DNA from: a virus
Direction: 5' to 3' (one strand)
DNA: 23,993 bases
Virus record (IMG/VR): IMGVR_UViG_3300017760_000095
Location: 1 to 23,993 of that record
Under the pieces are notes generated by a model, which searched no databases, was not told where the DNA came from, and was given only the letters and a program-made list of their open reading frames with translations. Both the position numbers and the translations under genes were made by a program. Every line of letters begins with the position of its first letter. Position 1 is the stretch's first letter. Below, piece after piece: positions 231 through 22,140 of the stretch.

Positions 231-689
231 TCAAGATACCAACTCCAAGTCACGAACAGAAATGTGATTGCTGTTCTGTGTATCTTTTCTGACGCCGATC
301 CACTGCACGCTGCAGCTATCGTTTGTCTCTTTAGTAACCATGCCAGTCAAGCCAGCAAAGCCATAACGCCTAGCACGCTTGGTCTGCTTGCCGCGAACCA
401 GTTGCCCAGTGTTGTACTTGCAAGGCGGTGCCTTCAGCGAGTGAAGCAGTTGCGTCAGGTTGTCGCGGAACGAACCAGCAAAGTAGTCGCTCATCGAATC
501 AGAGTGATCATCATAACGGCGCATGTGCCAGTTACATGCTTCAGCTTCCATAACATCATCGCCACGATGACCATTGACAAGAAACGAACCGACGTAACCG
601 TCATAGGTGAACCAAAATCTGCCTCCGTCATGCTCGACCTCGGTGCCAAGGTATTTCTCGATCTTCTTGATTGCTTTTCCGACTTTCAT
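231..689 (-). CDS. Phage protein with C-terminal SH3/KOW-like segment
   Basis: Unrecognised 152-aa protein. I chose the ATG at 689 (MKVGKAIKKIEKYLG) rather than an upstream in-frame ATG at 749, because GAGAGGAC sits just before it and the upstream stretch overlaps a promoter-like element. The N-terminal ~95 residues are unique and rich in His, Asp and aromatics. The C-terminal ~55 residues (TGQLVRGKQTKRARRYG, then GLTGMVTKE, SVQWIGVR and ending DLELVS) match the pattern of the small SH3-like proteins encoded just upstream. It is the first gene after the element at 721..751, so it is likely to be transcribed from it. Function unknown. Confidence 0.8.
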   Translation of the reverse strand: MKVGKAIKKIEKYLGTEVEHDGGRFWFTYDGYVGSFLVNGHRGDDVMEAEACNWHMRRYDDHSDSMSDYFAGSFRDNLTQLLHSLKAPPCKYNTGQLVRGKQTKRARRYGFAGLTGMVTKETNDSCSVQWIGVRKDTQNSNHISVRDLELVS

Positions 690-720
690 ATATGTCCTCT
701 CTCTTAGTTGGTGACATTTA

Positions 721-751
721 TTAGACGTGTGAGCGCGAGTTTTATTCAAAG
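721..751 (-). promoter_or_regulatory. Promoter-like repeat, copy 1
   Basis: Read on the minus strand this is TTTGAATAAAA, an 11-nt spacer, then ACGTCTAA. It is one of three near-identical elements (see 3504..3535 and 5099..5132), each ending 24-31 nt before a start codon. TTGAAT and TCTAAT could act as -35 and -10 boxes with an 18-nt spacer. The distance to the ATG at 689 is about 31 nt. Repetition and placement are seen; promoter activity is inferred. Confidence 0.6.
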
Positions 752-766
752 AAAATCGATCTTTTT

Positions 767-1015
767 TTAAAAAACTTTGCGAATATGTGTGAAGCCGTTG
801 GGCAAGCCATCCACTACGATGAGCGCGCCTCGGTTGTAGTCTGACTCCTCGTAGGTTTCTAGCTTAAACCGAGTTAGAACCTGCGTTACCAAGTCTTTCA
901 TTCGTTGAGAGTTGCCAGTGATGATCCTAAACGGAGCCTCGTTTTTGTGAGTGAAATCAATCACTTGTGTCTCCACGTCCAAGTGTTTCACGCCATGTAA
1001 ATCAAGTGTCTTCAT
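767..1015 (-). CDS. Small Smr-domain-like protein
   Basis: An 82-aa protein starting MKTLDLHGVKHLDVETQVIDF. The LDLHG motif (residues 4-8) near the N-terminus, and the later PFRIITGNSQRMKDLV (about 28-43), follow the layout of the Smr (small MutS-related) domain: LDLHG, helix, then a hydrophobic strand leading into a TG-containing loop. Smr domains bind or nick nucleic acids in MutS2 and stand-alone proteins. The usual TGxG loop is TGNS here, so catalytic ability is uncertain. The start overlaps the upstream gene by 14 nt, with GGAGG inside that gene serving as ribosome-binding site. Last gene before promoter copy 1. Family assignment is from motif only. Confidence 0.65.
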   Translation of the reverse strand: MKTLDLHGVKHLDVETQVIDFTHKNEAPFRIITGNSQRMKDLVTQVLTRFKLETYEESDYNRGALIVVDGLPNGFTHIRKVF

Positions 1016-1208
1016 TTTTTAGTGCCTCCAAGTTTTTTGCACGTACTTTAATAATCTTTGCTGTCCCATCGTCGATACAGATTTCGTAATCGTAGAAGGG
1101 TTCGTCATTCAAGACAGCCAACACGACTGCCCGGTATTTCTCCTCACGGAGATATTTAGTGTCAGGGAACTGGCAATACAGAACCCAGTCATCAACTTTG
1201 TAGCCCAT
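1002..1208 (-). CDS. Small SH3-like protein
   Basis: A 68-aa protein of the tandem small-protein family. It starts MGYKVDDWVLYCQFPD, then has a hydrophobic YRAVVLAVL strand, an acidic YEICIDDGTAKIIKV strand pair and ends in NLEALKNEDT. This order (V-D-x-V-L-Y, hydrophobic strand, I.V...., N/DLEAL) repeats in its neighbours and suggests a small all-beta SH3/KOW-like barrel. The ATG overlaps the TAA of the 1208..1417 gene (TAATG), implying coupled translation; no clear Shine-Dalgarno is visible. Function unknown. Confidence 0.75.
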   Translation of the reverse strand: MGYKVDDWVLYCQFPDTKYLREEKYRAVVLAVLNDEPFYDYEICIDDGTAKIIKVRAKNLEALKNEDT

Positions 1209-1417
1209 TACGGGCTGGACTTTGCGCGAGATAGCACACTGACATCAGATTTCCGGCATGCTGTGACCGTGGGACCACCACGCTCACCAAACCAAACAAC
1301 TCTAATGCCGGGATACGCATACTCATCAGTATCGCAGATCTCGACAACTACGCCCATCACTTGCGGTTCGGTCTTCCACCATAGGACAAGATCGCCCACT
1401 ATAATATCTCCAATCAC
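1208..1417 (-). CDS. Small SH3-like protein
   Basis: A 69-aa member of the small-barrel array: VGDLVLWWKTEPQVMGVVVEI then IRVVWFGERGG and ending KSDVSVLS. It shows the array signature most clearly (GDLV, GVVVE, I.V.W, VSVLS). The start is GTG, overlapping the preceding stop as GTGA; an alternative GTG at 1399, preceded by GGAG, would begin the protein directly at the GDLV strand and is nearly as likely. Possible roles of this fold in phages include binding nucleic acid or host proteins, but nothing here decides that. Confidence 0.75.
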   Translation of the reverse strand: MIGDIIVGDLVLWWKTEPQVMGVVVEICDTDEYAYPGIRVVWFGERGGPTVTACRKSDVSVLSRAKSSP

Positions 1418-1623
1418 TCACCGACCACCTCTACTTGCCAAACAGGTAGACCGCGCTTAGAGGTACCGAAAAGCACTTCCACGAAAGGCTCATAAGGGCA
1501 GAGGTCAAAGTTTACTTTCTTGCCTCTTTCGTCAACGTTCCAAAGTTTATGCTCATATGTCCTCACAACAACGCCTAAATCGCCTTTGTGACCAACCAAC
1601 CTAACTAAATCACCCACTTTCAC
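1414..1623 (-). CDS. Small SH3-like protein
   Basis: A 69-aa protein starting at GTG 1623 (MKVGDLVRLVGHKGDLGVVV). I preferred this to the ATG at 1641 because GGAGG lies six bases before the GTG and because the start then matches the MKVGDLV form of the paralogue at 2117..2353. After GVVVRTYEHKLW come FVEVLFGTSKRG and the ending PVWQVEVVGE, again the SH3-like order of strands. It overlaps the end of the 1610..1831 gene by 14 nt and its own stop overlaps the next start. Function unknown. Confidence 0.75.
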   Translation of the reverse strand: MKVGDLVRLVGHKGDLGVVVRTYEHKLWNVDERGKKVNFDLCPYEPFVEVLFGTSKRGLPVWQVEVVGE

Positions 1624-1831
1624 TAAGAACCTCCAAAGCATCCATTGAAAAATCTGATATTGGGGTATACCGTCCAGCGTATTTAACTGGCTTTACCCAT
1701 CGAATCCGAGCATGAGCGCGCCCATCGCTGCCCTTGGCTGTATAGTGAAGGATCAGCCCGTGTGCGCCAATAAAATCCTCGTACACATAGCCTGTGGCTG
1801 CTCCCACATATTTAACTAGTGTGCCGATCAT
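1610..1831 (-). CDS. Small SH3-like protein
   Basis: A 73-aa protein: MIGTLVKYVGAATGYVYED, then AHGLILHYTAKG, ARIRWVKPVKYAG and ending DALEVLSESG. The start ATG overlaps the previous stop (ATGA). The G-T-L-V-K-Y opening, GLILH strand, RIRWV strand and LEVLS ending fit the array of paralogue-like barrels in this region. No enzyme motif is visible and no function can be given. Confidence 0.75.
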   Translation of the reverse strand: MIGTLVKYVGAATGYVYEDFIGAHGLILHYTAKGSDGRAHARIRWVKPVKYAGRYTPISDFSMDALEVLSESG

Positions 1832-2130
1832 GATTGTCTCACCATCAACACAGGAAACCCGGCGGGCAACTCGCCCGAAACCATACCGCCATGCTTAGCG
1901 ATCACGTTAATAACTGTCATGCGCGGAACCCAACCGTATACTGTGCCGGTAAGATCATCAGGGTCTTCGGCATGCTTAGACAGCAATGACTCCTCTTGAT
2001 TAGGAAACCCTACTTCAACCTCATCATAGAAGTCAGCGCCGGCGTGCCTAGGCGTACAATACGCTGTACTATCCGCTTGCACGCTCATAGAAAACCCATC
2101 AACGCAAACAACTGGTTTATTTTTCTTCAT
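1828..2130 (-). CDS. Conserved phage hypothetical protein (VDGFSMSVQ type)
   Basis: A 100-aa protein starting MKKNKPVVCVDGFSMSVQ, with AYCTPR, YDEVEVGFPNQEESLL, HAEDPDDLTGTVYGWVP and INVIAKHGGM. I recognise this layout (CVDGFSMSVQA..AYC.PR...EVE.GFP...E..L..YAEDP...TGTVYG.VP......I..HGG) as a recurring small protein of phage and bacterial genomes without an assigned function. GGAGAAAATA precedes the ATG. It breaks the run of SH3-like genes, so the cluster is not simply one tandem duplication. Confidence 0.8.
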   Translation of the reverse strand: MKKNKPVVCVDGFSMSVQADSTAYCTPRHAGADFYDEVEVGFPNQEESLLSKHAEDPDDLTGTVYGWVPRMTVINVIAKHGGMVSGELPAGFPVLMVRQS

Positions 2131-2353
2131 TATTTTCTCCTGCTTTTACTAAAAACATTTCGTGGAAGTTTAATGTTCTTCCGTTTGTCATCCACAACTT
2201 ATAGATTGCTGTGAACTTTTTATTAGGGTTCTTGCCTGCACCAGTTGCAGTATGAACTTCTTCAATAATCAAACCCATGCGACTATCGGGCATTGCCGAA
2301 TCGTCTGTGCCTTCTTTGATCTTTACCAGATCGCCAACCTTAAACTTTCCCAT
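2117..2353 (-). CDS. Small SH3-like protein
   Basis: A 78-aa protein beginning MGKFKVGDLVKIKEGTDD, followed by RMGLIIEEVHTATGAG, FTAIYKLWMTNGRTLNFHE and ending in an acidic, charged tail (AGENNEEK). The GDLVKI, GLIIEEV and YKLWM strands match the array signature. AAAGGAAG sits directly before the ATG; the start overlaps the upstream gene by 14 nt. Function unknown. Confidence 0.75.
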   Translation of the reverse strand: MGKFKVGDLVKIKEGTDDSAMPDSRMGLIIEEVHTATGAGKNPNKKFTAIYKLWMTNGRTLNFHEMFLVKAGENNEEK

Positions 2354-2615
2354 CTTCCTTTGCCTTTATGACTCTACAATCTGCCACATTGAGAAGCCTG
2401 ATTGCGTTGAAGTTCGTCAGTGGTCTGACTTTGACTATGCTGCCCCAACCGACCTCTACCACTATTCCGTGCTCTGGAGCGGTGCCATGTCTCGATGGTG
2501 AAGCGGGGGTATTGAATGCGGCATCGGTCAGAAACACATCATAACACACCATGTCTCCGACATTAATATCTCTTGATGTCGACAGGCTATTAATGTTTGG
2601 TTTAGTTTTCTTCAT
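2340..2615 (-). CDS. Small SH3-like protein with N-terminal extension
   Basis: A 91-aa protein. About 18 polar residues precede the barrel signature VGDMVCYDVFLTDA, then HGIVVEVGWGSIVKVRPL and LLNVADCRVIKAKEDG. GDMV, GIVVEV and IVKVRPL are the array strands. The ATG overlaps the preceding TGA (ATGA). The Ser/Thr/Asn-rich leader is unusual compared with siblings that start within four residues of GDLV. Function unknown. Confidence 0.75.
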   Translation of the reverse strand: MKKTKPNINSLSTSRDINVGDMVCYDVFLTDAAFNTPASPSRHGTAPEHGIVVEVGWGSIVKVRPLTNFNAIRLLNVADCRVIKAKEDGKV

Positions 2616-2887
2616 CCTGACAACAACTCTACATTATGTGAGTGTACGTTGGGGTAAGTCTGCCCGTCCTTGAGAACCTTGAGGATCTGATAATACCTAC
2701 GGCAACCCGGTGGCACGTCACCACCAACAGAGTTGGGGGATATGTGATGCCACGATGATGCGCGCACTACAACAGCCGCCCCAGTCGGACACGGAATAAA
2801 ATCAATCTCATTGAGGCGAATCACTCTTATGAGATCTCCGGTCTTGTATGCTCTCTCGATGATAGCTCCTAGCGGCATTCTTCTCAC
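2612..2887 (-). CDS. Small SH3-like protein
   Basis: A 91-aa protein starting at GTG 2887, which overlaps the upstream TAG (TAGTG) and has GGAGG four bases before it; an upstream GTG at 2908 and ATG at 2878 are weaker. The chain reads MRRMPLGAIIERAYKTGD, then LIRVIRLNEIDFIPCPTG, AAVVVRASSWHHISPNS, YYQILKVLKDG and ends HNVELLSG. TGDLIRV, AAVVVRA and NVELLS follow the array pattern. Function unknown. Confidence 0.75.
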   Translation of the reverse strand: MRRMPLGAIIERAYKTGDLIRVIRLNEIDFIPCPTGAAVVVRASSWHHISPNSVGGDVPPGCRRYYQILKVLKDGQTYPNVHSHNVELLSG

Positions 2888-3108
2888 TAAGCCTCCGCAG
2901 TCACACAACCGGGAACGCTCACGATTGCAGTAAGAACATTTTCAATAGCGAATCGCTCAGCCATGCCTTCAGGTGAATCAGGATCGCCAATGGTATCTAG
3001 TTTCTCAGCCATCGTTGCCCACACAGTGTGTTGCGTTACGTTCTCGCCAAACTCGGCTGCTCTGAGTGTCACCAGCTCAAATGGTGTTAGGTTTATTTCA
3101 AAAGTCAT
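2887..3108 (-). CDS. Small helical hypothetical protein
   Basis: A 73-aa protein starting MTFEINLTPFELVTLRAAEF. It looks mainly helical and mildly acidic (MAERFAIENVLTAIVSV near the end) and lacks the SH3-like pattern of its neighbours. AAAGGAAAG precedes the ATG at 3108. It follows the 3121..3477 gene after 12 nt and so probably shares the promoter at 3504..3535. I do not recognise it. Confidence 0.75.
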   Translation of the reverse strand: MTFEINLTPFELVTLRAAEFGENVTQHTVWATMAEKLDTIGDPDSPEGMAERFAIENVLTAIVSVPGCVTAEA

Positions 3109-3120
3109 AGTCTTTCCTTT

Positions 3121-3477
3121 TTAGCTAGCGTATTTAATACTGTATGCGGTTGTGGCATCCATGCCATTAGAGTTGTCGCAGACGTATCCACGGATCGCGG
3201 AGTTGCCTTTGGTATAGGGAGCCTTCCAAGTTGCAGCCTTGAAGATTGCTCCGTCCGACTTACGAACAAAACCATACACAGAGCAGTTGATCCCCAAATC
3301 TTCCCCTTCTTCTCGTACGACCTTCCAATAGACTCGACCGGGATGTACCGTGATCTTGGGTGCCTTAAGGTTTTTATAGTTGCTGACGAAGTGATCGTTG
3401 ATCTTGTCCTGAACCTTCTCAACGAAAGTCTCAAATGCGTATTCGATTTCTTCAGGGGTTCGTTTTACCAGTTGCAT
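3121..3477 (-). CDS. Conserved phage hypothetical protein (SVYGFV / KAATWKAP type)
   Basis: A 118-aa protein starting MQLVKRTPEEIEYAFETF. I preferred the ATG at 3477 (AAAGGAAAGAGCT before it) to one at 3519, which falls within the promoter-like element. The middle and end carry KITVHPGRVYWKVVREEG, SVYGFVRKSDGAIFKAATW and RGYVCD. These motifs recur in many tailed-phage small proteins of unknown role, which I know as conserved hypotheticals. It is the first gene downstream of promoter copy 2, about 26 nt away, so it is likely expressed strongly. Confidence 0.85.
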   Translation of the reverse strand: MQLVKRTPEEIEYAFETFVEKVQDKINDHFVSNYKNLKAPKITVHPGRVYWKVVREEGEDLGINCSVYGFVRKSDGAIFKAATWKAPYTKGNSAIRGYVCDNSNGMDATTAYSIKYAS

Positions 3478-3503
3478 AGCTCTTTCCTTTTGTTGTCTAT
3501 AGA

Positions 3504-3535
3504 TTAGACGTATGGGCATCGGATTTTATTCAAAG
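3504..3535 (-). promoter_or_regulatory. Promoter-like repeat, copy 2
   Basis: Minus-strand reading: CTTTGAATAAAA, a 12-nt spacer, then ACGTCTAA, followed by TCTATAGACAACAAAAGGAA leading to the ATG at 3477. The downstream GTCTA..TAGAC could form a short hairpin. Matches the copies at 721..751 and 5099..5132; the spacer is not conserved, so the conserved blocks are likely functional rather than from recent duplication. Confidence 0.65.
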
Positions 3536-3549
3536 TTTTTTTATTATTT

Positions 3550-3846
3550 TTAATAATCATCGCGCTTGGTTGCAAGGATGATGGCACCGATGTAACCGGG
3601 TGGCACCTTGAGGATGAGTGTTCTCCATCCTTTCCATTTTGCACCAACATATAATAGATCTTTTAAGTGAGGCTCTAGCTGCTTGCTTGGTTCTTCAACT
3701 TCAACAACTAGCTCCAAGATATGTCCACCATCGTCAGAAGTAGTTCTGACGTGATATACCCCATTATATATCGAACCGATAAGCTCTGTCAAGCTCTCGA
3801 TTGCTTCTTCTTTAGATGCCTTCTCTCCTAAATTAAACTTACCCAT
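3550..3846 (-). CDS. Hypothetical small alpha/beta protein
   Basis: A 98-aa protein starting MGKFNLGEKASKEEAIESL with CTAAAGGAGAGA before the ATG. It has an N-terminal helix, a glycine-rich turn (SDDGGHILELVVEVEE), and a hydrophobic C-terminus (WRTLILKVPPGYIGAIILA). No known motif. It is the last gene before promoter copy 2. The stop is followed by an AT-only stretch; that stretch lacks a T run on this strand, so it is not a usual terminator. Confidence 0.75.
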   Translation of the reverse strand: MGKFNLGEKASKEEAIESLTELIGSIYNGVYHVRTTSDDGGHILELVVEVEEPSKQLEPHLKDLLYVGAKWKGWRTLILKVPPGYIGAIILATKRDDY

Positions 3847-3883
3847 TCCAATCTCTCCTTTAGTTAGGTTGTACCTGTAATAA

Positions 3884-4327
3884 TTAGAATGGAACTAGAA
3901 TCCTGTCCAGCCTTTCTGTCCTAGGAAAAGCATGCCAAACCGCCGGTGACCAGACTGCAGCTTCGGGGCATTTGTCGATTGTCATTTCAACATGGGTAAT
4001 GATCTCATGCATTGCAGCCGCATTCAGCATATAAGCATTGTTAATAAGATAGTCTAGATCGTAGTTGGCAACAACAAGCGTGCCCTTGCTGTTCAAAGCT
4101 ATTGGGACATCATTCGATGTAAGCCATGTATCCTCATAGGTTTCTGCAGCAAAGCGCGTGTTGTACCGACGAGATCTTATACGCTCGCCGCTTGGATTCA
4201 TTTCGGCTGCGATAGACCAATAATAGATCGCCGACTCAATGACGGTATAGTCAGTTTGGTAAGTGTTGTAGGATGCATCTTCCCAGTCTACGTCTGAAAC
4301 AAACGGCACCTTTATTAGCTGCTTCAT
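3884..4327 (-). CDS. Hypothetical protein
   Basis: A 147-aa protein starting MKQLIKVPFVSDVDWEDASY; the ATG overlaps the upstream TGA as ATGA. It is rich in Tyr, Trp, Asn and Ala, with a likely helical centre (VIESAIYYWSIAAEMNPSG) and a second helical region (YLINNAYMLNAAAMHEIITH). No membrane segment and no catalytic motif that I recognise. Position within the small-gene cluster is the only context. Confidence 0.75.
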   Translation of the reverse strand: MKQLIKVPFVSDVDWEDASYNTYQTDYTVIESAIYYWSIAAEMNPSGERIRSRRYNTRFAAETYEDTWLTSNDVPIALNSKGTLVVANYDLDYLINNAYMLNAAAMHEIITHVEMTIDKCPEAAVWSPAVWHAFPRTERLDRILVPF

Positions 4328-4692
4328 CTTTGTCGTTCCTGTACTTCACTCATGACCTTAAAGAAGCGACCTTCGTACCATTCATGCCCCAAGTGTACGC
4401 CCTCTGCTGGGACTGTGCCTTCAATAAGCAAATCATCATCGGACATACCTGCCTGTGCTGTCAGCACCCACTCTGTTTCATAGATTGGAGGCGATATAGC
4501 CTTCGGCTTAAACTTTCCTTTTCGCATCCACTTGATTCGGATGCAGTTCTTATAGCGCTTGTTGGTAGATTCCCATGGTGAACGGTGTCGCCACATAGAG
4601 TCGCGCACATCAACTACCAGACCGATGGTTTCATGTCCTCGACCACCGACATTGTACCAAACAATGTCACCTATTCGCGGAGTTTTTTCCAT
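4324..4692 (-). CDS. SH3-like protein, longer member
   Basis: A 122-aa protein: MEKTPRIGDIVWYNVGG, then ETIGLVVDVRDSMWRHRS, a basic IRIKWMRKGKFKPKAI segment, and a C-terminal stretch with HEWYEGRFFKVMSEVQ. GDIVWYNV, IGLVVDV and IRIKWM repeat the array signature, with a longer inserted loop and tail. GAGGGTACAA precedes the ATG. The middle carries many Lys and Arg, which would suit contact with nucleic acid, but that is inference. Confidence 0.75.
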   Translation of the reverse strand: MEKTPRIGDIVWYNVGGRGHETIGLVVDVRDSMWRHRSPWESTNKRYKNCIRIKWMRKGKFKPKAISPPIYETEWVLTAQAGMSDDDLLIEGTVPAEGVHLGHEWYEGRFFKVMSEVQERQR

Positions 4693-4945
4693 TTGTACCC
4701 TCTACGCTCGACAAAACCTCAAAGTTGTACTTAGAAATGTCTAGCATATGATATTCGTGTGAACGTGGTATGTAAACCACTATTTTTGGCGAACCGTCAT
4801 TAGCGGCTTCGACAACAAGTCCGTAACAATAGATAGGCTCGTATGGATATACATTGCCTGTATCGTCAGCGGTAAAGACAGCGTAGCTTATCACCCATCT
4901 TACGAAGTCACCAGTTGTAACCTTCGGTATGTCATAGTAATCCAC
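4667..4945 (-). CDS. SH3-like protein
   Basis: A 92-aa protein starting at GTG 4945 (MDYYDIPKVTTGDFVRWV). No other in-frame start lies before the conserved GDFVRW strand, and the Shine-Dalgarno is weak. YCYGLVVEAANDG, IVVYIPRSHEYHML and NFEVLSSVEG continue the array pattern. It overlaps the next gene by 26 nt and follows the 41-aa gene at 4949..5074 with only a 3-nt gap, so the two are probably coupled. Function unknown. Confidence 0.75.
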   Translation of the reverse strand: MDYYDIPKVTTGDFVRWVISYAVFTADDTGNVYPYEPIYCYGLVVEAANDGSPKIVVYIPRSHEYHMLDISKYNFEVLSSVEGTNGKNSANR

Positions 4946-5169: not shown

Positions 5170-5835
5170 TCATATTATTCTCGACTCTTTATCGAAATCA
5201 CGAAACAACGTATCAATGCCCAATTCACCGGAGAACCATTTTGACGGTAATGCGAAATCATACGAAGGTGATACAACTTCCCAACCCGTAAAGGTTAATG
5301 ATGGGTTGACTAGCGTTGGTGGAATTGTGAGCCACATACGTCGACCAACGTTTGATATTTGTTGGCACAAGACAGCGCGCTCACCTTCATTAATATAATT
5401 GATGCTTTCCCACTCATGACGTAAAACCATCCACAAAAGCCCATCGGTGGACTTGCGATGATCCTTGACTTTCAACATAGCTCCAATACCAATACCTAAA
5501 CGCTTAACATTCGTATAATATTCTTTGCGCCATGATGTATTTCTTTCAACAGCTAGTTTCATATCGCTCTTTAGAGTATTGCACGTTCTTCGGTTGTGAC
5601 CAAGCGTATGACAGTAAGTGCAGCTTCGCGGCATGCGTGCGCGCTCGGAGGCACTTTTTGAAATAGACTTCCGATTCTTTTTATACTCGACAATCAAAGG
5701 ATGGTTGGGTCCATGCTTTTGCTCCACCCTTTTCATATCGGATGCTAGCTGCGGGCATGTTTGCCTATTATGTCCTTTCGTAAAGCAGTAACCACACACA
5801 ACCGTCTTGGATTCGTTTTTGTTGCTTGTAGACAT
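5170..5835 (-). CDS. Double CCHC zinc-knuckle protein
   Basis: A 221-aa protein with two C-x2-C-x4-H-x4-C knuckles: CGYCFTKGHNRQTC (C14, C17, H22, C27) and CTYCHTLGHNRRTC (C72, C75, H80, C85), separated by a basic linker. Knuckles of this kind bind single-stranded nucleic acid, as in retroviral nucleocapsids; the GHNxRTC form also occurs in plant MYB-related proteins. The C-terminal half (about 113-200: GAMLKVKDHRKSTDGLLW, then VLRHEWESIN and WEVVSPSYDF) looks like a beta domain related in style to the SH3-like array. CGAGGAAC precedes the ATG. Likely a nucleic-acid-binding protein; target unknown. Confidence 0.85.
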   Translation of the reverse strand: MSTSNKNESKTVVCGYCFTKGHNRQTCPQLASDMKRVEQKHGPNHPLIVEYKKNRKSISKSASERARMPRSCTYCHTLGHNRRTCNTLKSDMKLAVERNTSWRKEYYTNVKRLGIGIGAMLKVKDHRKSTDGLLWMVLRHEWESINYINEGERAVLCQQISNVGRRMWLTIPPTLVNPSLTFTGWEVVSPSYDFALPSKWFSGELGIDTLFRDFDKESRII

Positions 5836-6923: not shown

Positions 6924-9900
6924 TTACTCCGCTTCTTTAATAATCTTTCTTATATTAGCACGGATTTTTGATTCTGTCAACTGTTTCTTTAAGTATGCGA
7001 TGCGCTCGGACATAGCGTTAGTACCTAATGGGGCTGCGTCACCCATGCCTAACTGGTTTCTAATCTCTTGGCGCCATGATGCGACCTCTTCTTCGGAAGG
7101 CGGCTTGCCGCCGTGCGCCATCTTCCAACGATTCCTAGCTATCTTCAACTCATATTCAACACGCTTCTCGTTTCTTTCTTCTTCTGTTCCGAAATGCTTT
7201 AATGTTATCTCTGGGTTGGCGTGTGCCTTGAAGTTTAAGTTGTCAATGATTGCGGAGGCTACTCCAGCCTCATGCATATGACCTCTTAGTGCGCCCTCCC
7301 AGCCAGCGGGTAGGTGCTTCTTGTCATCCCACTCAATATGCCTACCGGCTGACATGGGGCGCAAATATCTTTCAGTTACAATCTCTTTTTCAAAGTCGTT
7401 CATCTTGCTCCAAGTGTCGCCGCTTGACCACCACTCTACGATAGCTCTGCTGTGCTTCGATAGGCTGTCATCGTGACCAAAGGTTTCAAGCACTTCTTTG
7501 GACATGCCAAGCTGCTTATCGCCGCTAAGGTATTCTTCTTTAATCTCTGCTGCAATCTCAAGGTTAGGTTCGATAACAAAGCTTTGTGTTATGTCCTTCG
7601 CTGCCTCAAGTAGCATGTCCATATGGTTGTCGATAAACTCAATAAAGTGGAACGCTCCCTCTAATTCTTCTAAGTTGTCCTTGCTTTTGACTACAACCCT
7701 AAATTTTAGGAAGATAGGGCGAGTGTCGGATTCGCGGTGTTCAGCATCGCCAAACTTCAAGCCAATCTGTGTGTCCTTGGCAAAGTTAATACCTTCATAG
7801 GTTGGCTTCGCGTACTTCTCTCCGAACGGAAGATCAATCTGCTTCGATGCGTAGTTGTTTGCCGCCATCTCCAACTTTAATAACTTCTCTCTAAAGAAAC
7901 GATTGAATGATGAGTTGGTGCCGGGACCGACCCAGACCACATTACGCTCTCTCCTGCCTGCTACAGCCTTAGCCACGATGTCTGGGACACCACCGCTTTG
8001 GTGAAACACATTGCGTCCCTGTGCGCCATAGCCAGCACCCCAACGGGAATGCTTGGTTAGCCAATAAAACTTTTTAACGGGTAGCGTTATGTCTAATGGC
8101 ACGTCTGGGTTCGCGTTGTGGTCGCCTACGCCAAGGTTGAACCAGATTTCGCCTGACGGATCGTCATCGTCGTCATCTCCAATAATATTAAAGTTCTTGA
8201 GTTTTGCTCCCAACTCATCGATCTCGCTGGCGGTGTTGTCCCAAGCGCTAGAATTTGCGTATCCTTCTTCGACTAGCTTTCTTCTGATTATCTCATAATA
8301 CCGGTCGTACTTGCCATCCAACTCTCGCATGTGATCTAGGAAATAGTCAGCGTCGTCTGGGGCGTTACAGTCCTCGCAGTTAAATCGCCATGTGATCTCT
8401 AGACCTTCTTCTGTGTGGTCCCACTGGATCTCTTCTGGATATGCATCAGGCAGATCCAATAGGTTTTCAAAGTCGCGGCGACCTGCGGCTTGCCAATTGT
8501 CTTCGGGAATGTCATATGTCGGATGAACATCGTTGCCTTTGCCATCGTCGCCCCAACCAAGCGGGATCACTATACGAAGTGATCCGTCTGCATAAACATG
8601 AGGCTCAGCCATGTCGTAGTCATCACTAACATGTGCGCCGAAAGTTGCGTGTTCCAACTCGTTGTTTGCCTGATCGTTCAGGTCATCGACGGCGTTGTTG
8701 TACTCCTCAAACAAGGCTTCGTTTTGATCTTCTTCTTCACCTTCTGCATCGTGGTGAACGTCCATGCCGTATGAGTAAGGGTCTTCCGCGTCTGGGTTCA
8801 TACCATTTTTAAAGAACAAGCTAAGGATCTCGCCGTCGCGGGTGTCACCGTAGCTACCGCCATGGCGCTCAAGGTAGTCCGACTGCGGTATGAAATACGT
8901 GGTTGCTTCGCCCTTGCCAGTCTCAGGATCAATGTCGCCTAGCTCTTGAGCGAATATCTCTTTCTGCTTATCCCACACAAACTCCCTGACTGCACCGACA
9001 AAGCCGGGAATGCCCCTGCCGTATGTTCTGCTCTCTGGTGCTGCAAAGGTTAGATCGTTGGGGGAATCGGTGTACTTCCGAAGCCTAACGCGAGCCTGTA
9101 CGCCGATGCCGTCAATGTTTCTATCGCGATCCGTGAAGATCTCTTCGTCATCAAAGTCGCCAATGTCTTTCGGGTCTGGCGCTCGGGTGGCTTCTTCGCT
9201 GTGCTTCTTTAATGCGGTATCGTATTCTTCTTGTGACGTGATGCCTTCGTATGGCTTGAATCCTGGCCACCCAGCCGCTTTTGCATCTTCATAGTTTTTA
9301 ATGTACTGCTTGAATAACTCAGGACCGATGTTAAGCTGTCTAGCTTGGGAAATCATCATAAGCTCTTGATGTCTCTCAGGCTTCGCAGCCATCTCAGCCT
9401 TATTCTTATATTCTTTCATCCACTTTGCGCCTACGTTGGTCCTAGCCCACACCCACAGCAGCACTAACGCGCCCTCGGGCGTTTCGGTGTCATAGTCCTG
9501 ACGGATGGCAGTGATTCTCTCACCCTTTGCCATATCACTAAACATTCTGTCCATCTTTGCAATCGGCTTTTCTCTTTCTTCGCTTGGCGTCAGAAGCTTA
9601 TTAAGTTGCTGCTCTGTAACTGCGTACGCGATAGGTCCATGACCCTTCGCCTCTTGCTTGGCACAATGGAAATACTCGCTGCCCTCGCTGTGGCATGAGT
9701 GAATGTTACTAATGTCGCTCATGCGCAGTACATCGATTGGGTGGCGGGACAGGATGATGTGCATGTTCTCTGTCTTGTCGCCATCCCTGTCGCTAAGCCC
9801 TCGCTGGATCTTGCCGTGGTTATTATCTTTTGTGTAGCGTGTCTGGTTCTTAGTCCACCATGCACCTGAACCCTCTGGGATCTCGCCTTTCTTCTCAAGA

Positions 9901-10529
9901 CCTCCGATGATTTTGTTGATACCCTGCTTCTGAACCTTAATAATCTTTTCGCCTGCTCTCGGTCCTTTCGGGATTACCTGCTCGACGATCTTCTCAAGGG
10001 TGAAATCTGCTACATCAATCTCTACTTCGTACTCGCCGCCGCCATCAGCAGCAAGGCGCTGACGCTTCTGCTTTACCTTCTTTGTGGAGAACGCTCTTTC
10101 GGGTACCTCTGAGACTTCCCATGCCTTCCATTCTTCTTTGGTTGGCTCCCACATCTCGTCTGTGTCTGGGTTGCGTCGTTGACCTGTTTCGGTTGTCTTC
10201 TCATAGTTGTAAATGCTGCGATATCGCTCACGGGAGCTATCAGAGATTGGTGGTTTCCAGCCTGCGTCTTTGATGCCGCGCAGGATTGCCTTGAGCGTGC
10301 GGGTATCCGCGCCGTCCAAGGGGATGACCACGCGCATGTTATCGCCAAAGATCTCGTTGAAGTCGTAATGACCATAATCCGCAGCGTCCGCAGACGCCAT
10401 CCAGTCATAGATCTTATCAGCAACTTGCTTTGAGACTTCATTCATGATGTCTCGGCGCTCGCTAAGAGTTAGGGGTTTTGTGCTTTGGGTGAACTTTTGC
10501 CAGTTCTCTACAATAGTTTTATAATCCAT
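6924..10529 (-). CDS. 1201-aa phage protein of unknown function with SRHP...SCHS motif
   Basis: Largest gene of the window; AGGTAAGCAC precedes the ATG. It starts MDYKTIVENWQKFTQS and ends in a helical segment (KKQLTESKIRANIRKIIKE) like tails of other large phage structural or capsid-internal proteins. The one sharp motif lies at residues 258-304: IILSRHPIDVLRMSD, then NIHSCHSEG, YFHCAKQEA and PIAYAV. Related S-R-x-P-x-D-x-x-x-M-S...SC patterns occur in other large phage proteins without known function. C279, H280, H288 and C289 could bind metal, or C279/H280 could be catalytic. The centre is highly acidic, with a run of six Asp near residue 788, and another W-x-T-K-H-S-R-W-G stretch follows. 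Size suggests a virion or injected protein (inference). Confidence 0.85.
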   Translation of the reverse strand: MDYKTIVENWQKFTQSTKPLTLSERRDIMNEVSKQVADKIYDWMASADAADYGHYDFNEIFGDNMRVVIPLDGADTRTLKAILRGIKDAGWKPPISDSSRERYRSIYNYEKTTETGQRRNPDTDEMWEPTKEEWKAWEVSEVPERAFSTKKVKQKRQRLAADGGGEYEVEIDVADFTLEKIVEQVIPKGPRAGEKIIKVQKQGINKIIGGLEKKGEIPEGSGAWWTKNQTRYTKDNNHGKIQRGLSDRDGDKTENMHIILSRHPIDVLRMSDISNIHSCHSEGSEYFHCAKQEAKGHGPIAYAVTEQQLNKLLTPSEEREKPIAKMDRMFSDMAKGERITAIRQDYDTETPEGALVLLWVWARTNVGAKWMKEYKNKAEMAAKPERHQELMMISQARQLNIGPELFKQYIKNYEDAKAAGWPGFKPYEGITSQEEYDTALKKHSEEATRAPDPKDIGDFDDEEIFTDRDRNIDGIGVQARVRLRKYTDSPNDLTFAAPESRTYGRGIPGFVGAVREFVWDKQKEIFAQELGDIDPETGKGEATTYFIPQSDYLERHGGSYGDTRDGEILSLFFKNGMNPDAEDPYSYGMDVHHDAEGEEEDQNEALFEEYNNAVDDLNDQANNELEHATFGAHVSDDYDMAEPHVYADGSLRIVIPLGWGDDGKGNDVHPTYDIPEDNWQAAGRRDFENLLDLPDAYPEEIQWDHTEEGLEITWRFNCEDCNAPDDADYFLDHMRELDGKYDRYYEIIRRKLVEEGYANSSAWDNTASEIDELGAKLKNFNIIGDDDDDDPSGEIWFNLGVGDHNANPDVPLDITLPVKKFYWLTKHSRWGAGYGAQGRNVFHQSGGVPDIVAKAVAGRRERNVVWVGPGTNSSFNRFFREKLLKLEMAANNYASKQIDLPFGEKYAKPTYEGINFAKDTQIGLKFGDAEHRESDTRPIFLKFRVVVKSKDNLEELEGAFHFIEFIDNHMDMLLEAAKDITQSFVIEPNLEIAAEIKEEYLSGDKQLGMSKEVLETFGHDDSLSKHSRAIVEWWSSGDTWSKMNDFEKEIVTERYLRPMSAGRHIEWDDKKHLPAGWEGALRGHMHEAGVASAIIDNLNFKAHANPEITLKHFGTEEERNEKRVEYELKIARNRWKMAHGGKPPSEEEVASWRQEIRNQLGMGDAAPLGTNAMSERIAYLKKQLTESKIRANIRKIIKEAE

Positions 10530-11734: not shown

Positions 11735-12484
11735 TTAAACGCTAAAAGCGGCGTTGCTTAGAAGAACAGCGGTATCTTGCCAAGATTCCACAGAGTGAGC
11801 TTTGCCATTTTTCATTCTCTCGACCTCAACAGCAAGAGCATAGTCGTTACCCGGTGCCTCTATTCTGTCTCCTACAAAGTTTATTGTAGCATCTTTTGGT
11901 AAGTCCTTAAAATAATTCCTCATTATCTGTGATTTGTCATGACCGATGGGAAAAATGTCGATGCTCACAGCCCCACCAATAACAAAGTCTAGCTCTTTGT
12001 GTCCCTTCCTGAGAGATTCCACTATCTTTGCTCGCTCCTCATGCTCTGCATCATATTTTGCGTATTCTTCGCGCTGCTTGTTGTCTGCTTTTCTGCCTAC
12101 GATTGAAAAATTCATAGCGCCGGTGCGAACCTCATAATGAAGACCGGTTTTGGTTTTATAAGGCGACATAGATACAATCAAGTCTAGCTCATCTAAAAGA
12201 GTCTTCGATGGCTCAAACTCGTTCTCGTACTCTTTGAACCATGCGCGAGGTTCGTCCTTCTTACGCCGATAACACACGTTACCCATACAGGAAAAGACTG
12301 CTGACATGTTATCCATGACATCTGGACCAAGCTGTTCGCACAATCGCACAAAGCTCCCGCCGGAAACAAGATAAACCTCCTTATCAGAAGACCATTTGTA
12401 GAACTGCTTCTTAAACTTTGGTATAGCCTTTCGCTTCGGAGGAGTCAGAGTGCCATCGACATCAAACATATATATTTTTCTCAT
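11735..12484 (-). CDS. Eukaryotic-type phosphomannomutase (HAD fold)
   Basis: A 249-aa protein matching the PMM family of HAD enzymes that interconvert mannose-6-phosphate and mannose-1-phosphate. Visible: motif I FDVDGTLTPP (nucleophile D8, acid D10), SGGS (41-44), the cap substrate stretch EVRTGAMNFSIVGR (118-131, two Arg as in human PMM2), GGAVSIDIFPIGHDKSQ (170-186, K184), GDRIEAPGND (205-214), and a final GKAHSVESWQDT like the GHSV..P.DT ending. Length matches the family (about 245). The ATG overlaps the stop of the mannose-isomerase-type cupin upstream (ATGA), so the two are co-translated and likely one pathway. This PMM type is far commoner in eukaryotes than in bacteria, which generally use an unrelated PMM. 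Confidence 0.85.
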   Translation of the reverse strand: MRKIYMFDVDGTLTPPKRKAIPKFKKQFYKWSSDKEVYLVSGGSFVRLCEQLGPDVMDNMSAVFSCMGNVCYRRKKDEPRAWFKEYENEFEPSKTLLDELDLIVSMSPYKTKTGLHYEVRTGAMNFSIVGRKADNKQREEYAKYDAEHEERAKIVESLRKGHKELDFVIGGAVSIDIFPIGHDKSQIMRNYFKDLPKDATINFVGDRIEAPGNDYALAVEVERMKNGKAHSVESWQDTAVLLSNAAFSV

Positions 12485-13876: not shown

Positions 13877-14179
13877 CTACCCCTTTAACAGTTGCTTCTG
13901 TTGGATGCTGAGTTTGTCCTCGATGATCGTGATGCCGCCGACAACAACTATGTCTAAGCCGCCAGTACCTCTGCTCATCTGAATCTTTGTGAACTCTTGC
14001 CTATCGTCCAGCCCGTCTGGTAGCGAGCCTTCTGCCAACAGCTTTGTCGCTCTCATGTCTGGTCGTAAGCATACCACAAAATCTGGGTTTACAACGACTT
14101 CTCGCAGAGTCCAGCGATTATTAGTGGTGTTATTGTGGGTTGGCTGTTCAAACAGCTCTACTAGTTTAATTCCTTTCAT
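13877..14179 (-). CDS. Conserved phage hypothetical protein (REVVVNPDFVVCLR)
   Basis: A 100-aa protein; ATG overlaps the upstream TGA as ATGA, with GGGAGTGAAAT before it. WTLREVVVNPDFVVCLRPD, LLAEGSLPDGLDDRQEFTKI and GGLDIVVVGGITIIEDKL resemble a small beta-rich protein seen in phages (LREV.VNP..VV..R.....LL.EG.LP.GLD.RQ.FT.I). No function known to me. Confidence 0.8.
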   Translation of the reverse strand: MKGIKLVELFEQPTHNNTTNNRWTLREVVVNPDFVVCLRPDMRATKLLAEGSLPDGLDDRQEFTKIQMSRGTGGLDIVVVGGITIIEDKLSIQQKQLLKG

Positions 14180-14415
14180 ATTTCACTCCCGTTCAATAAA
14201 GGATATACATGTCTTTTCTTTGCCATGAAGCGCTGCCCTCTTACAAAAAGCAGGTAACCATTTAGCCTCTCTTCTATAAATACTGCGGTTGTAGGCTCTT
14301 TAGTTTTAGTAAGATTGTAGCCTCCAGCCACATCTACAATCCACAGTCGCACATCTTGAGGAAGGTAGACAAGATCTCCCTTCTCAAAACCGCTATTACT
14401 CTGGTGTACTTCCAT
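14176..14415 (-). CDS. SH3-like small protein, distant from the main array
   Basis: A 79-aa protein with FEKGDLVYLPQDVRLWIVDV, TTAVFIEERLNGYLLFVRG and MAKKRHVYPLLNG. GDLVYL and LWIVDV match the barrel signature of the genes at 1.0-4.9 kb. AGAAGGCG precedes the ATG, and the start overlaps the previous gene by 20 nt. It shows the family is dispersed over the genome. Function unknown. Confidence 0.75.
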   Translation of the reverse strand: MEVHQSNSGFEKGDLVYLPQDVRLWIVDVAGGYNLTKTKEPTTAVFIEERLNGYLLFVRGQRFMAKKRHVYPLLNGSEI

Positions 14416-15059: not shown

Positions 15060-16643
15060 TCAGCCAGCTATAATGGCGTGACTTGTTGTGAATAAAGTTC
15101 CAGCAGCGGAAGCCGCATTCTGTAACGCAGAGCGCGTTACCTTTACTGGATCAATAATACCAGAAGCAATCATCTTTGTCAAGCCTCCTCTATGAAAATC
15201 CCACCCGTACTCGTCGTCGGCTTCCATTACCTTGCTTACAATTATGTCTGGGGATTCTCCAGCATTCTTAGCCATCTGATAAAGTGGCGCGTAAACTGCA
15301 TTTTTGATGATCTCAATGCCATGGCGCTGGTCCTCGTTCTCTGGCGTTACTCCGATTGATACGGATGCACGAATCAACGCGACACCACCGCCGGGTACGA
15401 TTCCTTCCTGCTGTGCGGAGCGTACTGCCTCTAGTGCATCTTCGATTCGGTGACGCTTTTCGGTCATCTCAACTTCGGTGGCTGCTCCCACTCGGATAAC
15501 AGCCACTCCAGAAGCCAAACGAGTGATGCGCTCTTGAATCTTTTCGCACTCATGCAAAGAATCAGTTTGTTCTAGCTCTGCTTTAAGGTTAATAATCTGC
15601 TCTTCGACTGCAGAATGATCTCCAACACCACCGGCTACTGTAGTCCAGCCCTTGGTAATCTCAACAGTCTTGCATGAACCAAGATCCGCCAGTGTCACAT
15701 TTGCGGGAGACATGCCCTTGGAAAGATTAATGAACGTTGCGCCGGTTGATAAAGCCAAGTCCTGCATAATATTGCGGCGGTCCTCTCCATAGCGAGGCGC
15801 CTTGACTGCAGCGACCTTGATGCCTGAGTTCATTTCCTGTCGTCTGATAGCGTTCATGATCAAAGCTGCTAGCGCCTGACCTTCTACTTCGTCTGCAACA
15901 ATGATGAGAGGGCGGCTGCTTCGGTCTGCAATCTCAAGGACCGGCATCAACTCGTCGACTCTTTCAATCTTTGAGTCCGTGACCATAATCAGCGCGTCAT
16001 CATAGCGCACCATATTACGGCGAGCGTCAGTAACAAAAGCAGTAGCCACATACCCTGAGTCGAACCGGAAACCTTCAATCAAGTCAAGGCTCGTCTCTAA
16101 GCTTCTCGCTTCTTCGACTGTGACTGCTCCGTCCTTGCCAACACTGTCAACCGCAGTTGCCACAAGATCACCAAGCTTTCTATCGTTGTTCGCAGAAATG
16201 GTAGCTACGTGGGCGATGTCGTCTTTGCTGCGAATCGGTTGCGCCATTTCCTTAAGGTTCTCGACGATACCAGCAACAGCCTTATCCATTCCGCGCTTAA
16301 GCTCAACTGGCGATGAGCCTGCAGCAAGAAACCTCTGTGACTGTTCTAGGATCTCGCGAGCCAACACAGTTGCTGTAGTGGTTCCGTCGCCAGCAGCGCT
16401 GTTAGTTTGTGAAGATGCCTGTTTAATAATCTGAGCACCTACGTTCTCAAATGGATCTTCTAAGTCAACGTGGCGCGCAACTGTAACGCCATCCTTTGTG
16501 ATGATGGGCTTACCGTCAGCAGATTGCAGAATTACATTCCTGCCGCGTGGACCCAAGGTTGCTGCCGTATAATCGGCTAGTAAATTGACACCGTTTAGAA
16601 TCTTCTGACTCAAAGCGGTACCATGCTCATAATGTTTGGACAA
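15060..16643 (-). CDS. groEL: GroEL-type chaperonin
   Basis: A 527-aa group I chaperonin. Nucleotide-site motifs are intact: LGPRGRNVIL (30-39), ITKDGVTVA (48-56), AAGDGTTTA (83-91, D86 matching E. coli D87), RIEDALEAVRSA with the hydrolysis Asp, and PGGGVALIRA. The apical domain carries DELMPVLEIADRSSRPLIIV and VKAPRYGEDRRN, a one-residue change from the usual GFGD. The usual GGM-repeat tail is absent; it ends SHAIIAG, somewhat shorter than the 548-aa E. coli protein. Start is TTG 16643 with GAGAGGTG before it. No groES is seen in the window, so it may use host GroES, a distant one, or none. A perfect sigma-70 promoter precedes it. Confidence 0.95.
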   Translation of the reverse strand: MSKHYEHGTALSQKILNGVNLLADYTAATLGPRGRNVILQSADGKPIITKDGVTVARHVDLEDPFENVGAQIIKQASSQTNSAAGDGTTTATVLAREILEQSQRFLAAGSSPVELKRGMDKAVAGIVENLKEMAQPIRSKDDIAHVATISANNDRKLGDLVATAVDSVGKDGAVTVEEARSLETSLDLIEGFRFDSGYVATAFVTDARRNMVRYDDALIMVTDSKIERVDELMPVLEIADRSSRPLIIVADEVEGQALAALIMNAIRRQEMNSGIKVAAVKAPRYGEDRRNIMQDLALSTGATFINLSKGMSPANVTLADLGSCKTVEITKGWTTVAGGVGDHSAVEEQIINLKAELEQTDSLHECEKIQERITRLASGVAVIRVGAATEVEMTEKRHRIEDALEAVRSAQQEGIVPGGGVALIRASVSIGVTPENEDQRHGIEIIKNAVYAPLYQMAKNAGESPDIIVSKVMEADDEYGWDFHRGGLTKMIASGIIDPVKVTRSALQNAASAAGTLFTTSHAIIAG

Positions 16644-19615: not shown

Positions 19616-20272
19616 TTAGACAATTATGTCTGCGATGCCGTACTCTATCGCTTCTGTTGCAGAAAGATATACGTTGACCTTTCTTTCCAAAAGCTTTTTA
19701 AGCGTGCGCTTGGTTAGGCTCGTTTCCTTGACCAGCGCTTCCATGTATGTTTCTTGAGAGTTTCTAATCTCTTCCATCTCGTTCTCTAAGCTGTGAATAG
19801 AGCCGTGGTTGCCCCCGATAACCGAATGGATCATAACGCGGCAATTCTTGCCAATCTTTCGCTGACCCTTCGTACCAGCAGCCAATAAAAGGACGCCTGC
19901 TGACATTACCTTGCCGATTCCAAAAGTGTGAATCTCACAGTTCTGCTGAATCATTCTCATGATATCATAAAGAGCGAACATATCGTCTGCGTTGCCGCCA
20001 TATGTCGAGATAAGAAACTCCATCGGTTCCCACACTAGTTCGCCCTCTTCATCCTCTCTCTTTCCCGAATTATGCAACACAAGCAGACCGCTTAAGGTTT
20101 CCTGTGCCTTTTCTTCGTTAATGTCGCCATACAGTCCGACGATGCGCATCTCATCATCTGGTGGACCTCCTGCCAGCAAAGCTTCTAAGGCTGCTGGAGT
20201 AAGCTCTTCGACTTGTGGCTTCTCTTCTTCTGCTTCTGCTTCAACTTTTTCTTTCTTTGGACTCATAATCAT
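19616..20272 (-). CDS. ClpP-like serine protease (S14) with Asn at the Asp position
   Basis: A 218-aa ClpP-fold protein. After an acidic N-terminus (EAEAEEEKPQVEEL) come STYGGNADDMFALYDIM, GKVMSAGVLLLAAG with nucleophile S124, and CRVMIHS with H149. In E. coli ClpP the third residue is the Asp of DRFLSAPEA; the aligned segment is NVYLSATEA, putting N200 there. ClpP-like phage proteases serve as prohead proteases in some families or as general proteases; the triad change leaves activity open. AGGAAAGGC precedes ATG 20272, which overlaps the preceding stop (ATGA); ATG 20266 is an alternative. Confidence 0.88.
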   Translation of the reverse strand: MIMSPKKEKVEAEAEEEKPQVEELTPAALEALLAGGPPDDEMRIVGLYGDINEEKAQETLSGLLVLHNSGKREDEEGELVWEPMEFLISTYGGNADDMFALYDIMRMIQQNCEIHTFGIGKVMSAGVLLLAAGTKGQRKIGKNCRVMIHSVIGGNHGSIHSLENEMEEIRNSQETYMEALVKETSLTKRTLKKLLERKVNVYLSATEAIEYGIADIIV

Positions 20273-21309: not shown

Positions 21310-21564
21310 CTAACTGTCAAATAAAAAATCTTTTAAATCCGCTGCTCGTAAAGCAATTTTCTTCAGTGCGCGCTTTTCTATTTGCTGAATTCTAGCCGGA
21401 GTGTAGCCTAATCGTTTTGCAACCTCTGCCAAGGTCATCGAACCGTGTCTCTTTACTGCCACCAAAGTACAGTTTAGATCTTCCGAGTAGTTCATCCATA
21501 GGCGACACTCATCGTTCTTGCAATCTTTATTTTTCCTGAAGCACTCCCTCGCGCAGTGCCTCAT
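21310..21564 (-). CDS. Sigma-70 region-4-like protein with Cys cluster
   Basis: An 84-aa protein. Residues 43-69 (MTLAEVAKRLGYTPARIQQI then EKRALKKI) match the sigma-70 region 4 helix-turn-helix, typically LTLEEIG..LG.S.ERVRQIE..AL.KL, which contacts the -35 element and the RNA polymerase flap. Upstream lies a cysteine cluster C4-x3-C8-x6-C15-x4-C20 plus C32, likely binding zinc. No regions 2 or 3 are present, so it cannot act alone as a sigma factor. Might redirect host polymerase or act with another phage factor. The ATG overlaps the preceding TGA (ATGA). Confidence 0.8.
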   Translation of the reverse strand: MRHCARECFRKNKDCKNDECRLWMNYSEDLNCTLVAVKRHGSMTLAEVAKRLGYTPARIQQIEKRALKKIALRAADLKDFLFDS

Positions 21565-21827
21565 TCCATGTCCATCGCACTTTGTTCTGTCATTGCTGCG
21601 TGAATCTTGGAGATTTCCATGTACCCATCAACAACATTGACGTGATCGCAACGGTGCCACTCCTCTGTAAATTCTGGCGGTGTTGGGTTCGTAAACTTAA
21701 TCTTGAACCACCGCCATGGTGCGAGCGAGCCTCCGCAATCCCTCATCTCCGTATCCACAATTACTCCATAATATGCCGGTGTGGTTTTTCTATTCCAACA
21801 TACAATCTTGCCTTTATAGTCCATCAT
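21561..21827 (-). CDS. SH3-like small protein
   Basis: An 88-aa protein: MMDYKGKIVCWNRKTTPAYY, GVIVDTEMRDCGG, WFKIKFTNPTPPEF and HVNVVDGYMEISKIHAA. KIVCW, YGVIVDTE and FKIKF follow the array signature seen at 1-5 kb, now in the DNA-metabolism region. GAGGAA precedes ATG 21827 (a second ATG follows at once); it overlaps the upstream gene by 14 nt. Function unknown. Confidence 0.75.
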   Translation of the reverse strand: MMDYKGKIVCWNRKTTPAYYGVIVDTEMRDCGGSLAPWRWFKIKFTNPTPPEFTEEWHRCDHVNVVDGYMEISKIHAAMTEQSAMDME

Positions 21828-22140
21828 GTTCCTCTTCGATCATATCGAATATATTTTCAATTTCTGCGGGGTCAAGAGCCAAACTGTTTTTCAACTCTTC
21901 ACCCTTTTCTCTCAACTTCTTAGATTTTTCGTTCCTAAGCTTACTGAGAGAACCCTTTTCAGACTTTAATGTTTCCATGAATGCCATGAAATCTTTGTCC
22001 TGATTCAAGTATGCGTCAATGCATCCCCGAAAAAACTGTGACTGCTTAACACCGTCATAATGCAACCTTACCCGCAGGTTGGCATGGGTTGTGTCATTCT
22101 CTCGGAACACGACCCTCTTGTTGTACTGTTCATCAGACAC
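21814..22140 (-). CDS. Ribbon-helix-helix-like protein with charged helical tail
   Basis: A 108-aa protein with start GTG 22140, overlapping the preceding TAG (TAGTG) with TTGGGGAA before it. Residues 9-45 (RVVFRENDTTHANLRVRLHY then DGVKQSQFFRGCIDAYL) look like a ribbon-helix-helix: a strand, then two helices with KQSQFFR. The C-terminal half is helical and highly charged (KLRNEKSKKLREKGEELKNS, ending IENIFDMIEEEHDGL). I recognise the same layout in other phage small proteins. Likely a DNA-binding regulator; the target is unknown. Confidence 0.75.
   Translation of the reverse strand: MSDEQYNKRVVFRENDTTHANLRVRLHYDGVKQSQFFRGCIDAYLNQDKDFMAFMETLKSEKGSLSKLRNEKSKKLREKGEELKNSLALDPAEIENIFDMIEEEHDGL

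Follow-up and report, generated by a model that had tools for sequence, protein, structure and literature searches.

Why should a phage carry many very small genes whose proteins open and close with the same few residues and are highly diverged in between? This question is raised by a 23,993-base virus fragment (IMG/VR record IMGVR_UViG_3300017760_000095, positions 1 to 23,993; hereafter the window), in which an earlier reading of the sequence alone, the original prediction, had described a dispersed family of small SH3/KOW-like barrels. The genes it named were all confirmed as open reading frames (ORFs) on the minus strand. The window has no near match among named phages, and direct searches gave no convincing PHROG or Pfam match for most of these genes. 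Our analysis suggests that the window is the diverged edge of an array, in T4-type marine phages, of exchangeable cassettes that encode small binding proteins, a reading to which we assign a probability of roughly 75%. The original prediction overlooked two features on which this reading depends, namely that the conserved opening and ending are a single stretch of DNA read in two frames and that the genes belong to arrays that exchange cassettes.

A joint read in two frames

In the large contigs described below, family members read MKVGDLV...GIVVEV...VxW...LEVISESR. One stretch of DNA, read in two frames, gives both the ending LEVLSES-G/R-stop and the opening (V/M)KVGDLV, and both protein ends are conserved because the last codons of one gene are the first codons of the next in the other frame. 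The ending LEVLS, formerly taken for a protein motif of the family, is in fact the ribosome-binding site and start of the following gene. Ribosome-binding site, start codon, and upstream stop are packed into ~30 nt, and the overlap is exactly 14 nt. The consensus of 379 joints with exact coordinates is TTGGAGGTgATcA-GTGAAAGTCGGTGATTTgGTaA, comprising GGAGG as the ribosome-binding site, GTG or ATG as the start of gene n+1, and TGA as the stop of gene n; the flanks are almost unconserved. The canonical joint in the window lies at 1610..1635 (minus strand), where g1610 and g1414 overlap by 14 nt. Its sequence, TTGGAGGTTCTTAGTGAAAGTGGGTGAT, encodes both LEVLSESG-stop at the end of g1610 and VKVGDLV at the start of g1414 (GTG at 1623), with GGAGG placed 6 nt upstream of the GTG; judged from this arrangement, g1414 probably starts at the GTG at 1623 and not at the ATG at 1641. 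Further 14-nt overlaps in the window are found at 2340/2117, 2117/1828, and 1002/767.

A search of the viral contigs with the g1208 protein alone returned nothing, and profile and joint-pattern searches were needed to find members. A degenerate joint pattern occurs at at least 120 loci in viral contigs, where chance would be expected to give far fewer than one match over the whole collection. Bacterial and archaeal genomes, 257 Gb in total, have it in 10 stretches, each from a metagenome-assembled record. A contig filed in a Halobacteriovorax metagenome-assembled genome (L207, PBIO01000025.1) is equal in length to the IMG/VR virus contig L145 (101,404 bases each) and is probably a phage contig binned into that genome. 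Used as a query, the neighboring ClpP-like gene (19616-20272) recovered 59 IMG/VR relatives, and extending these led to a collinear region in contig G001 and to arrays in four larger contigs. A seed hidden Markov model (HMM) of 623 sequences found 941 members at E<1e-3, and iteration with re-inclusion of duplicates gave 1150 member genes, which form about 713 clusters at 50% identity, 512 of them singletons. Sixteen large contigs carry 11-32 members each, in arrays. The related contigs come from uncultivated phages, are marine, and are 180-290 kb in length; gp23, found in 21 of 24 contigs, marks them as T4-type, and a RecA-family protein is present in all 17 contigs tested. Among named phages, tblastn with the family consensus and with a multi-member concatenate gave no match, and the 36-nt joint gave only chance-level matches (E 0.4-5); a match of the joint in Det7 was rejected, its gene lying on the opposite strand. 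In about 12 of the 16 large contigs (G008-G010, G016-G028), the array lies less than 25 kb from a contig end, sometimes from both ends; these ends may be the natural termini of the genomes, or the assembly may have broken at an array that varies within the population.

A barrel start lies exactly 14 nt inside the gene's own end (position -14) in 576 of the 1150 family members. Candidate starts in member-member pairs peak at -14 (502 of 920, with 13 at -11 and 3 at -17), and other genes of the same loci have no such peak (50 of 1722 at -14, 78 at -11, and 101 at -8). In loci retrieved via the ClpP-like gene alone, 31 member pairs overlap or lie near each other, and 23 of these are joined at -14; the joint is therefore not an artifact of retrieval by the joint. 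Among 570 SESR-type tails, a barrel start is present in about 532, a share used in place of a comparison of tails with and without a start at -14, which is partly circular because AGT GAA contains GTG. Of 321 overlapped genes, 316 use GAG for the glutamate of LEV, as compared with 43% GAG usage in the bodies. Codon preference extends to starts at which overlap is impossible, defined by an upstream frame closed by a stop: there GTC makes up 58% of valine codons and GGT 76% of glycine codons, against 21-22% and 32-33%, respectively, elsewhere.

Cassette exchange between phages

Among orthologous cassettes, 64 pairs are joined at -14 to different downstream partners. Across the joint their DNA identity drops from about 0.75 to 0.28, being 0.69-0.83 before it and 0.26-0.33 after position +21, against a random-joint baseline of 0.26-0.30 before and 0.26-0.34 after; 68 upstream switches give the mirror-image profile. 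Contigs L073 and L158, whose flanking DNA is 97-98% identical, differ by three single-cassette insertions or deletions, each running from joint to joint, with extra cassettes in L158 after a GIY-YIG-like gene and before a gene opening MKVGDLVSV, and in L073 before VNNTHALDRSG. L115 and L146 share eight small, mostly gene-sized blocks of 75-95% DNA identity in shuffled order, several of them ending at joints, and L103 and L146 have in common a 55-aa cassette (98% identity) after which their cassettes are unrelated. In the window, g767 is joined at -14 to g1002, and its orthologue in G001 to the g1414 orthologue; the g1208 orthologue sits elsewhere in G001. Neighbor conservation, measured by reciprocal best hits in matched contig pairs and identity bands, with pairs that are not independent, is 15% for members against 30-47% for other genes of the same contig pairs at 60-80% identity, and 46% against 63-73% at 80% identity or more; an adjacency control without matching of contig pairs or identity did not separate members from other genes. 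The variation seen is whole-gene exchange, and these sequence comparisons show that cassettes are exchanged at the joint between phages.

Substitution patterns, with the joints excluded, show that the bodies are real proteins under purifying selection: the pooled ratio of nonsynonymous to synonymous substitution rates (dN/dS) is 0.164 over 231 pairs, and the nonsynonymous proportion of differences (pN) is below the synonymous one (pS) in 229 of the 231. The content of the arrays appears, on this comparative support, to turn over fast although the bodies are old and highly diverged. Their age and low identity had been read correctly in the original prediction: mean column identity in the family alignment (A1) is 17%, and only five within-locus member pairs, all loci together, reach 50% identity.

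In the mechanism that we propose, a cassette is one gene of ~64 codons whose product is an SH3/KOW-like barrel. The first codons of the gene (RTG AAA GTC GGT GAT) hold its own start together with the stop of the preceding gene, one frame over, and its last codons (LEV-I-S-E-S-R) hold the ribosome-binding site and start of the following gene. Any two cassettes joined at the 30-nt coding joint would yield two intact, initiated, and terminated genes, so that whole genes could be inserted, deleted, or swapped without frame breakage. Exchange may proceed by homologous recombination on the short repeated joints through a RecA/UvsX-like recombinase of the phage, and the overlap may also couple translation. 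A more far-reaching version, in which the arrays constitute a combinatorial system for protein diversity and the two-frame joint acts as a recombination site that needs no dedicated integrase and reassorts host-binding barrels in the manner of an integron, is offered tentatively, as we judge it somewhat more apt to fail than to hold.

Several points weigh against an exchangeable array of this kind. A start at -14 is absent from about 40% of members (462 of 1150); most joint-bearing loci were retrieved by the joint pattern, and counts outside the unbiased subset are inflated, with joined members over-represented. The window itself keeps a single canonical barrel-barrel joint, 1610/1414. Joints are barely more alike within a genome than between genomes (similarity 0.774 vs 0.757, p 1e-4), so strong intragenomic homogenization is not seen. 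Moreover, exchange was deduced by comparison, and illegitimate recombination, followed by selection for products whose joints are intact, could account for the changes in order. The last point is the core of an explanation in which the joint is conserved only for translation, as ribosome-binding site, start, stop, and coupling, while illegitimate recombination does the shuffling. The conserved positions are indeed the ribosome-binding site, start, and stop, and since breakpoints elsewhere in overlapped genes break a gene, selection alone predicts blocks bounded by joints. Nevertheless, the GTC/GGT preference at non-overlappable starts is a carry-over that translation does not need, and the exact single-cassette differences between near-identical phages resemble recombination between short repeats; we consider this explanation unlikely, while granting it appreciable weight. 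Hardly tenable, by comparison, is the reading implied by the original prediction, an old family of tandem duplicates inherited vertically without exchange. The strong divergence of the bodies, with 713 clusters at 50% identity among 1150 members, would suit it, but orthologous cassettes of 60-98% identity adjoin unrelated cassettes in different phages, and near-identical phages differ by single cassettes.

Membership, fold, and putative role

Membership was assessed by profile-profile comparison with hhalign against a 250-sequence family alignment, using as controls 28 other small window genes, among which the highest probability was 2.4%. The genes formerly grouped as one family thereby fall apart into six clear members, two moderate ones, three weak ones, and one without support, g1002. 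By these profile matches, g1414 (1414..1623; 96.8%), g1610 (1610..1831; 93.1%, with an orthologue-like cassette in L099), g4667 (4667..4945; 91.5%), g2117 (2117..2353; 90.3%, overlapping both neighbors by 14 nt), g1208 (1208..1417; 84.1%, with its orthologue relocated in G001), and g4324 (4324..4692; 75.9%, orthologue E 5.8e-5) are secure members, all of them, like the genes that follow, on the minus strand. The family HMM agrees with hhalign for g1414, g1208, and g2117 (E 1.4e-7, 1.7e-6, and 6.7e-6 in a search of 15,206 ORFs, values that are mildly optimistic given possible seed overlap). Probable members are g2340 (2340..2615; 34.5%), whose G001 orthologue reached E 5.5e-7 with the family HMM when 59 ORFs were searched, and the C-terminal half of g231 (231..689; 33.3%, orthologue E 0.0011), a possible barrel attached to an unrelated N-terminal part. 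The weak candidates are the distant g14176 (14176..14415; 15.7%), which is single-copy and conserved among relatives, g2612 (2612..2878; 6.0%), which has a long insert, and g21561 (21561..21827; 4.9%); given the small control set, these three calls are not to be relied on. Membership of g1002 (1002..1208; 0.5%), which overlaps g767 by 14 nt, is unsupported.

The AlphaFold2 model of g1208, built from a 113-sequence alignment, has a mean predicted local distance difference test (pLDDT) score of 85.4 and a predicted template modeling (pTM) score of 0.73. It forms a five-stranded SH3-like/KOW barrel, with strands at residues 10-13, 20-28, 37-43, 50-55, and 59-63 and a short helix preceding the last strand. 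VIA-align 2 places the model on the Spt5 KOW domain (Z 9.8, root-mean-square deviation 1.9 A, 62 residues), the other top rows being ribosomal proteins, MutS2 KOW (Z 8.4, 1.4 A), and NusG, and a sequence profile (A2) matches Spt5 at E 7e-4. Foldseek E-values were weak (best 0.044), as expected for a barrel of only 69 residues. The SH3/KOW-like barrel of the original prediction is thus supported as the predicted fold of the family by one good model, that of g1208; the model of g2612, built from three sequences, reached a pLDDT of 54.9. Pfam KOW (PF00467) matched a single window protein even weakly, g1414, at 14.7 bits against a cut-off of 22.3 (E 0.027), and was not among the Pfam matches of 113 sampled members. 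In PHROG, phrog_1690, a group of unknown function, matched three of these 113 members (best E 1.8e-5) and the other 110 did not match it; it therefore covers only a corner of the family.

Members are short (length quartiles 59-71 aa) and enriched in tryptophan and valine. Their mean net charge is -0.8, with +4 or more in only 13%, which would favor protein binding over general nucleic-acid binding; the latter, one of two roles originally suggested, is thus not supported as a general function. In being highly diverse, encoded as free-standing single barrels, and rapidly exchanged, the family resembles gene sets for host takeover or counter-defense. The other suggestion, that of host-interacting adaptors, would be the most likely role; in a specific form, in which the small barrels bind variable proteins of the host (or of rival phages) and make up an interchangeable takeover or counter-defense set, we give it a little short of even odds. 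Nucleic-acid-binding or transcription/translation factors of the NusG/Spt5 KOW type, with the expression of the phage itself as their target, would agree with the nearest folds, those of the Spt5, NusG, ribosomal, and MutS2 KOW domains. They would also agree with the placement of a Smr-like gene, whose partner at the joint is barrel-like in the window and is a barrel in G001, KOW followed by Smr being the domain order of MutS2. Yet a general basic charge is not seen, KOW and SH3-like barrels also bind proteins, a common fold shows no function, and the turnover and diversity are unlike a conserved housekeeping role, which makes such factors improbable. We attach very little probability to virion decoration or structural modules: SH3-like barrels are known in phage structural proteins, but the members are free-standing 64-aa proteins in variable arrays, and their few PHROG matches carry no structural annotation.

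Guest genes, comparable systems, and significance

Non-barrel genes also occur as guests beside the barrels. In the window, g767 (767..1015, minus strand), joined at -14 to g1002, carries conserved LDLHG and ITGxS motifs that appear Smr-like by eye and had no Pfam match at 0.01. Its homologs are joined at -14 to varied upstream genes, namely the g1414 orthologue in G001 and unrelated genes in L047, L040, and L038. The guest gene g1828 (1828..2130, minus strand) has homologs adjoining barrel cassettes in L073, L158, and L099; they occur on either side of a g1610-like cassette, in L099 on the opposite side. Genes that appear GIY-YIG-like (L073:9928-10188 and L056) and MazG-like (L078) by eye are guests joined at -14 within barrel arrays. 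The remainder of the window encodes, on the minus strand, a GroEL (15060-16643) whose named-phage matches are all below 60% identity, a ClpP-like head maturation protease (19616-20272), an IMPDH/GMP-reductase-like enzyme (22140-23186), and a HAD protein (11735-12484), unusual for a phage, that matches the Pfam 'eukaryotic phosphomannomutase' family at E 4.6e-30. A 1201-aa protein (6924-10529) is conserved in relatives and has no PHROG match, and the product of 5170-5835 contains two zinc-knuckle-like motifs (Pfam zf-CCHC_2 below the cut-off), with homologs near barrel arrays in several relatives.

Lambdoid phages have short conserved linker or boundary sequences at module borders, which have been proposed to guide homologous recombination. 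The joints resemble these as short conserved border sequences; however, lambdoid linkers split unrelated modules a few times per genome, whereas in barrel arrays most of 10-30 genes share the border, which is coding in two frames. Integrons, as arrays of promoterless single-gene cassettes exchanged between genomes, offer a second likeness, but the 14-nt overlap between barrel cassettes leaves no room for an intergenic site. The KOW and SH3-like barrels of NusG, Spt5, and MutS2 have the same fold, whereas the array members are free-standing single-barrel genes. The closest known system, as far as the summary in PMC4503421 describes it, is the modular shuffling mediated by PeSLs in T4-type phages (Arbiol 2010; Comeau 2014, as cited in PMC4503421), PeSLs being composite promoter-terminator stem-loop motifs between genes. 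As summarized there, both systems concern T4-type phages in which small accessory genes are shuffled among relatives via a short repeat at gene boundaries, and such small-gene shuffling in T4-type genomes is seen here, the cassette switches showing the shuffling and gp23 in 21 of 24 contigs the T4-type genomes. The two differ in that the repeat here is a 30-nt coding overlap inside both genes, linking genes of one fold, and the 14-nt overlap leaves no intergenic space for a promoter and stem-loop. No paper describing overlapping barrel-gene arrays was found in the literature searched, whose coverage largely leaves out subscription journals.

If the exchangeable array is real, T4-type ocean phages would have in common a large stock of very small barrel genes, which can be linked in whatever order with no gene broken. 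This would explain the fast turnover of accessory-gene regions in large phages and would put at hand a collection of small, probably host-binding proteins that could be mined. Furthermore, since the boundary is defined to the nucleotide, the long-standing idea that short boundary sequences drive the modular evolution of phages would become directly testable.

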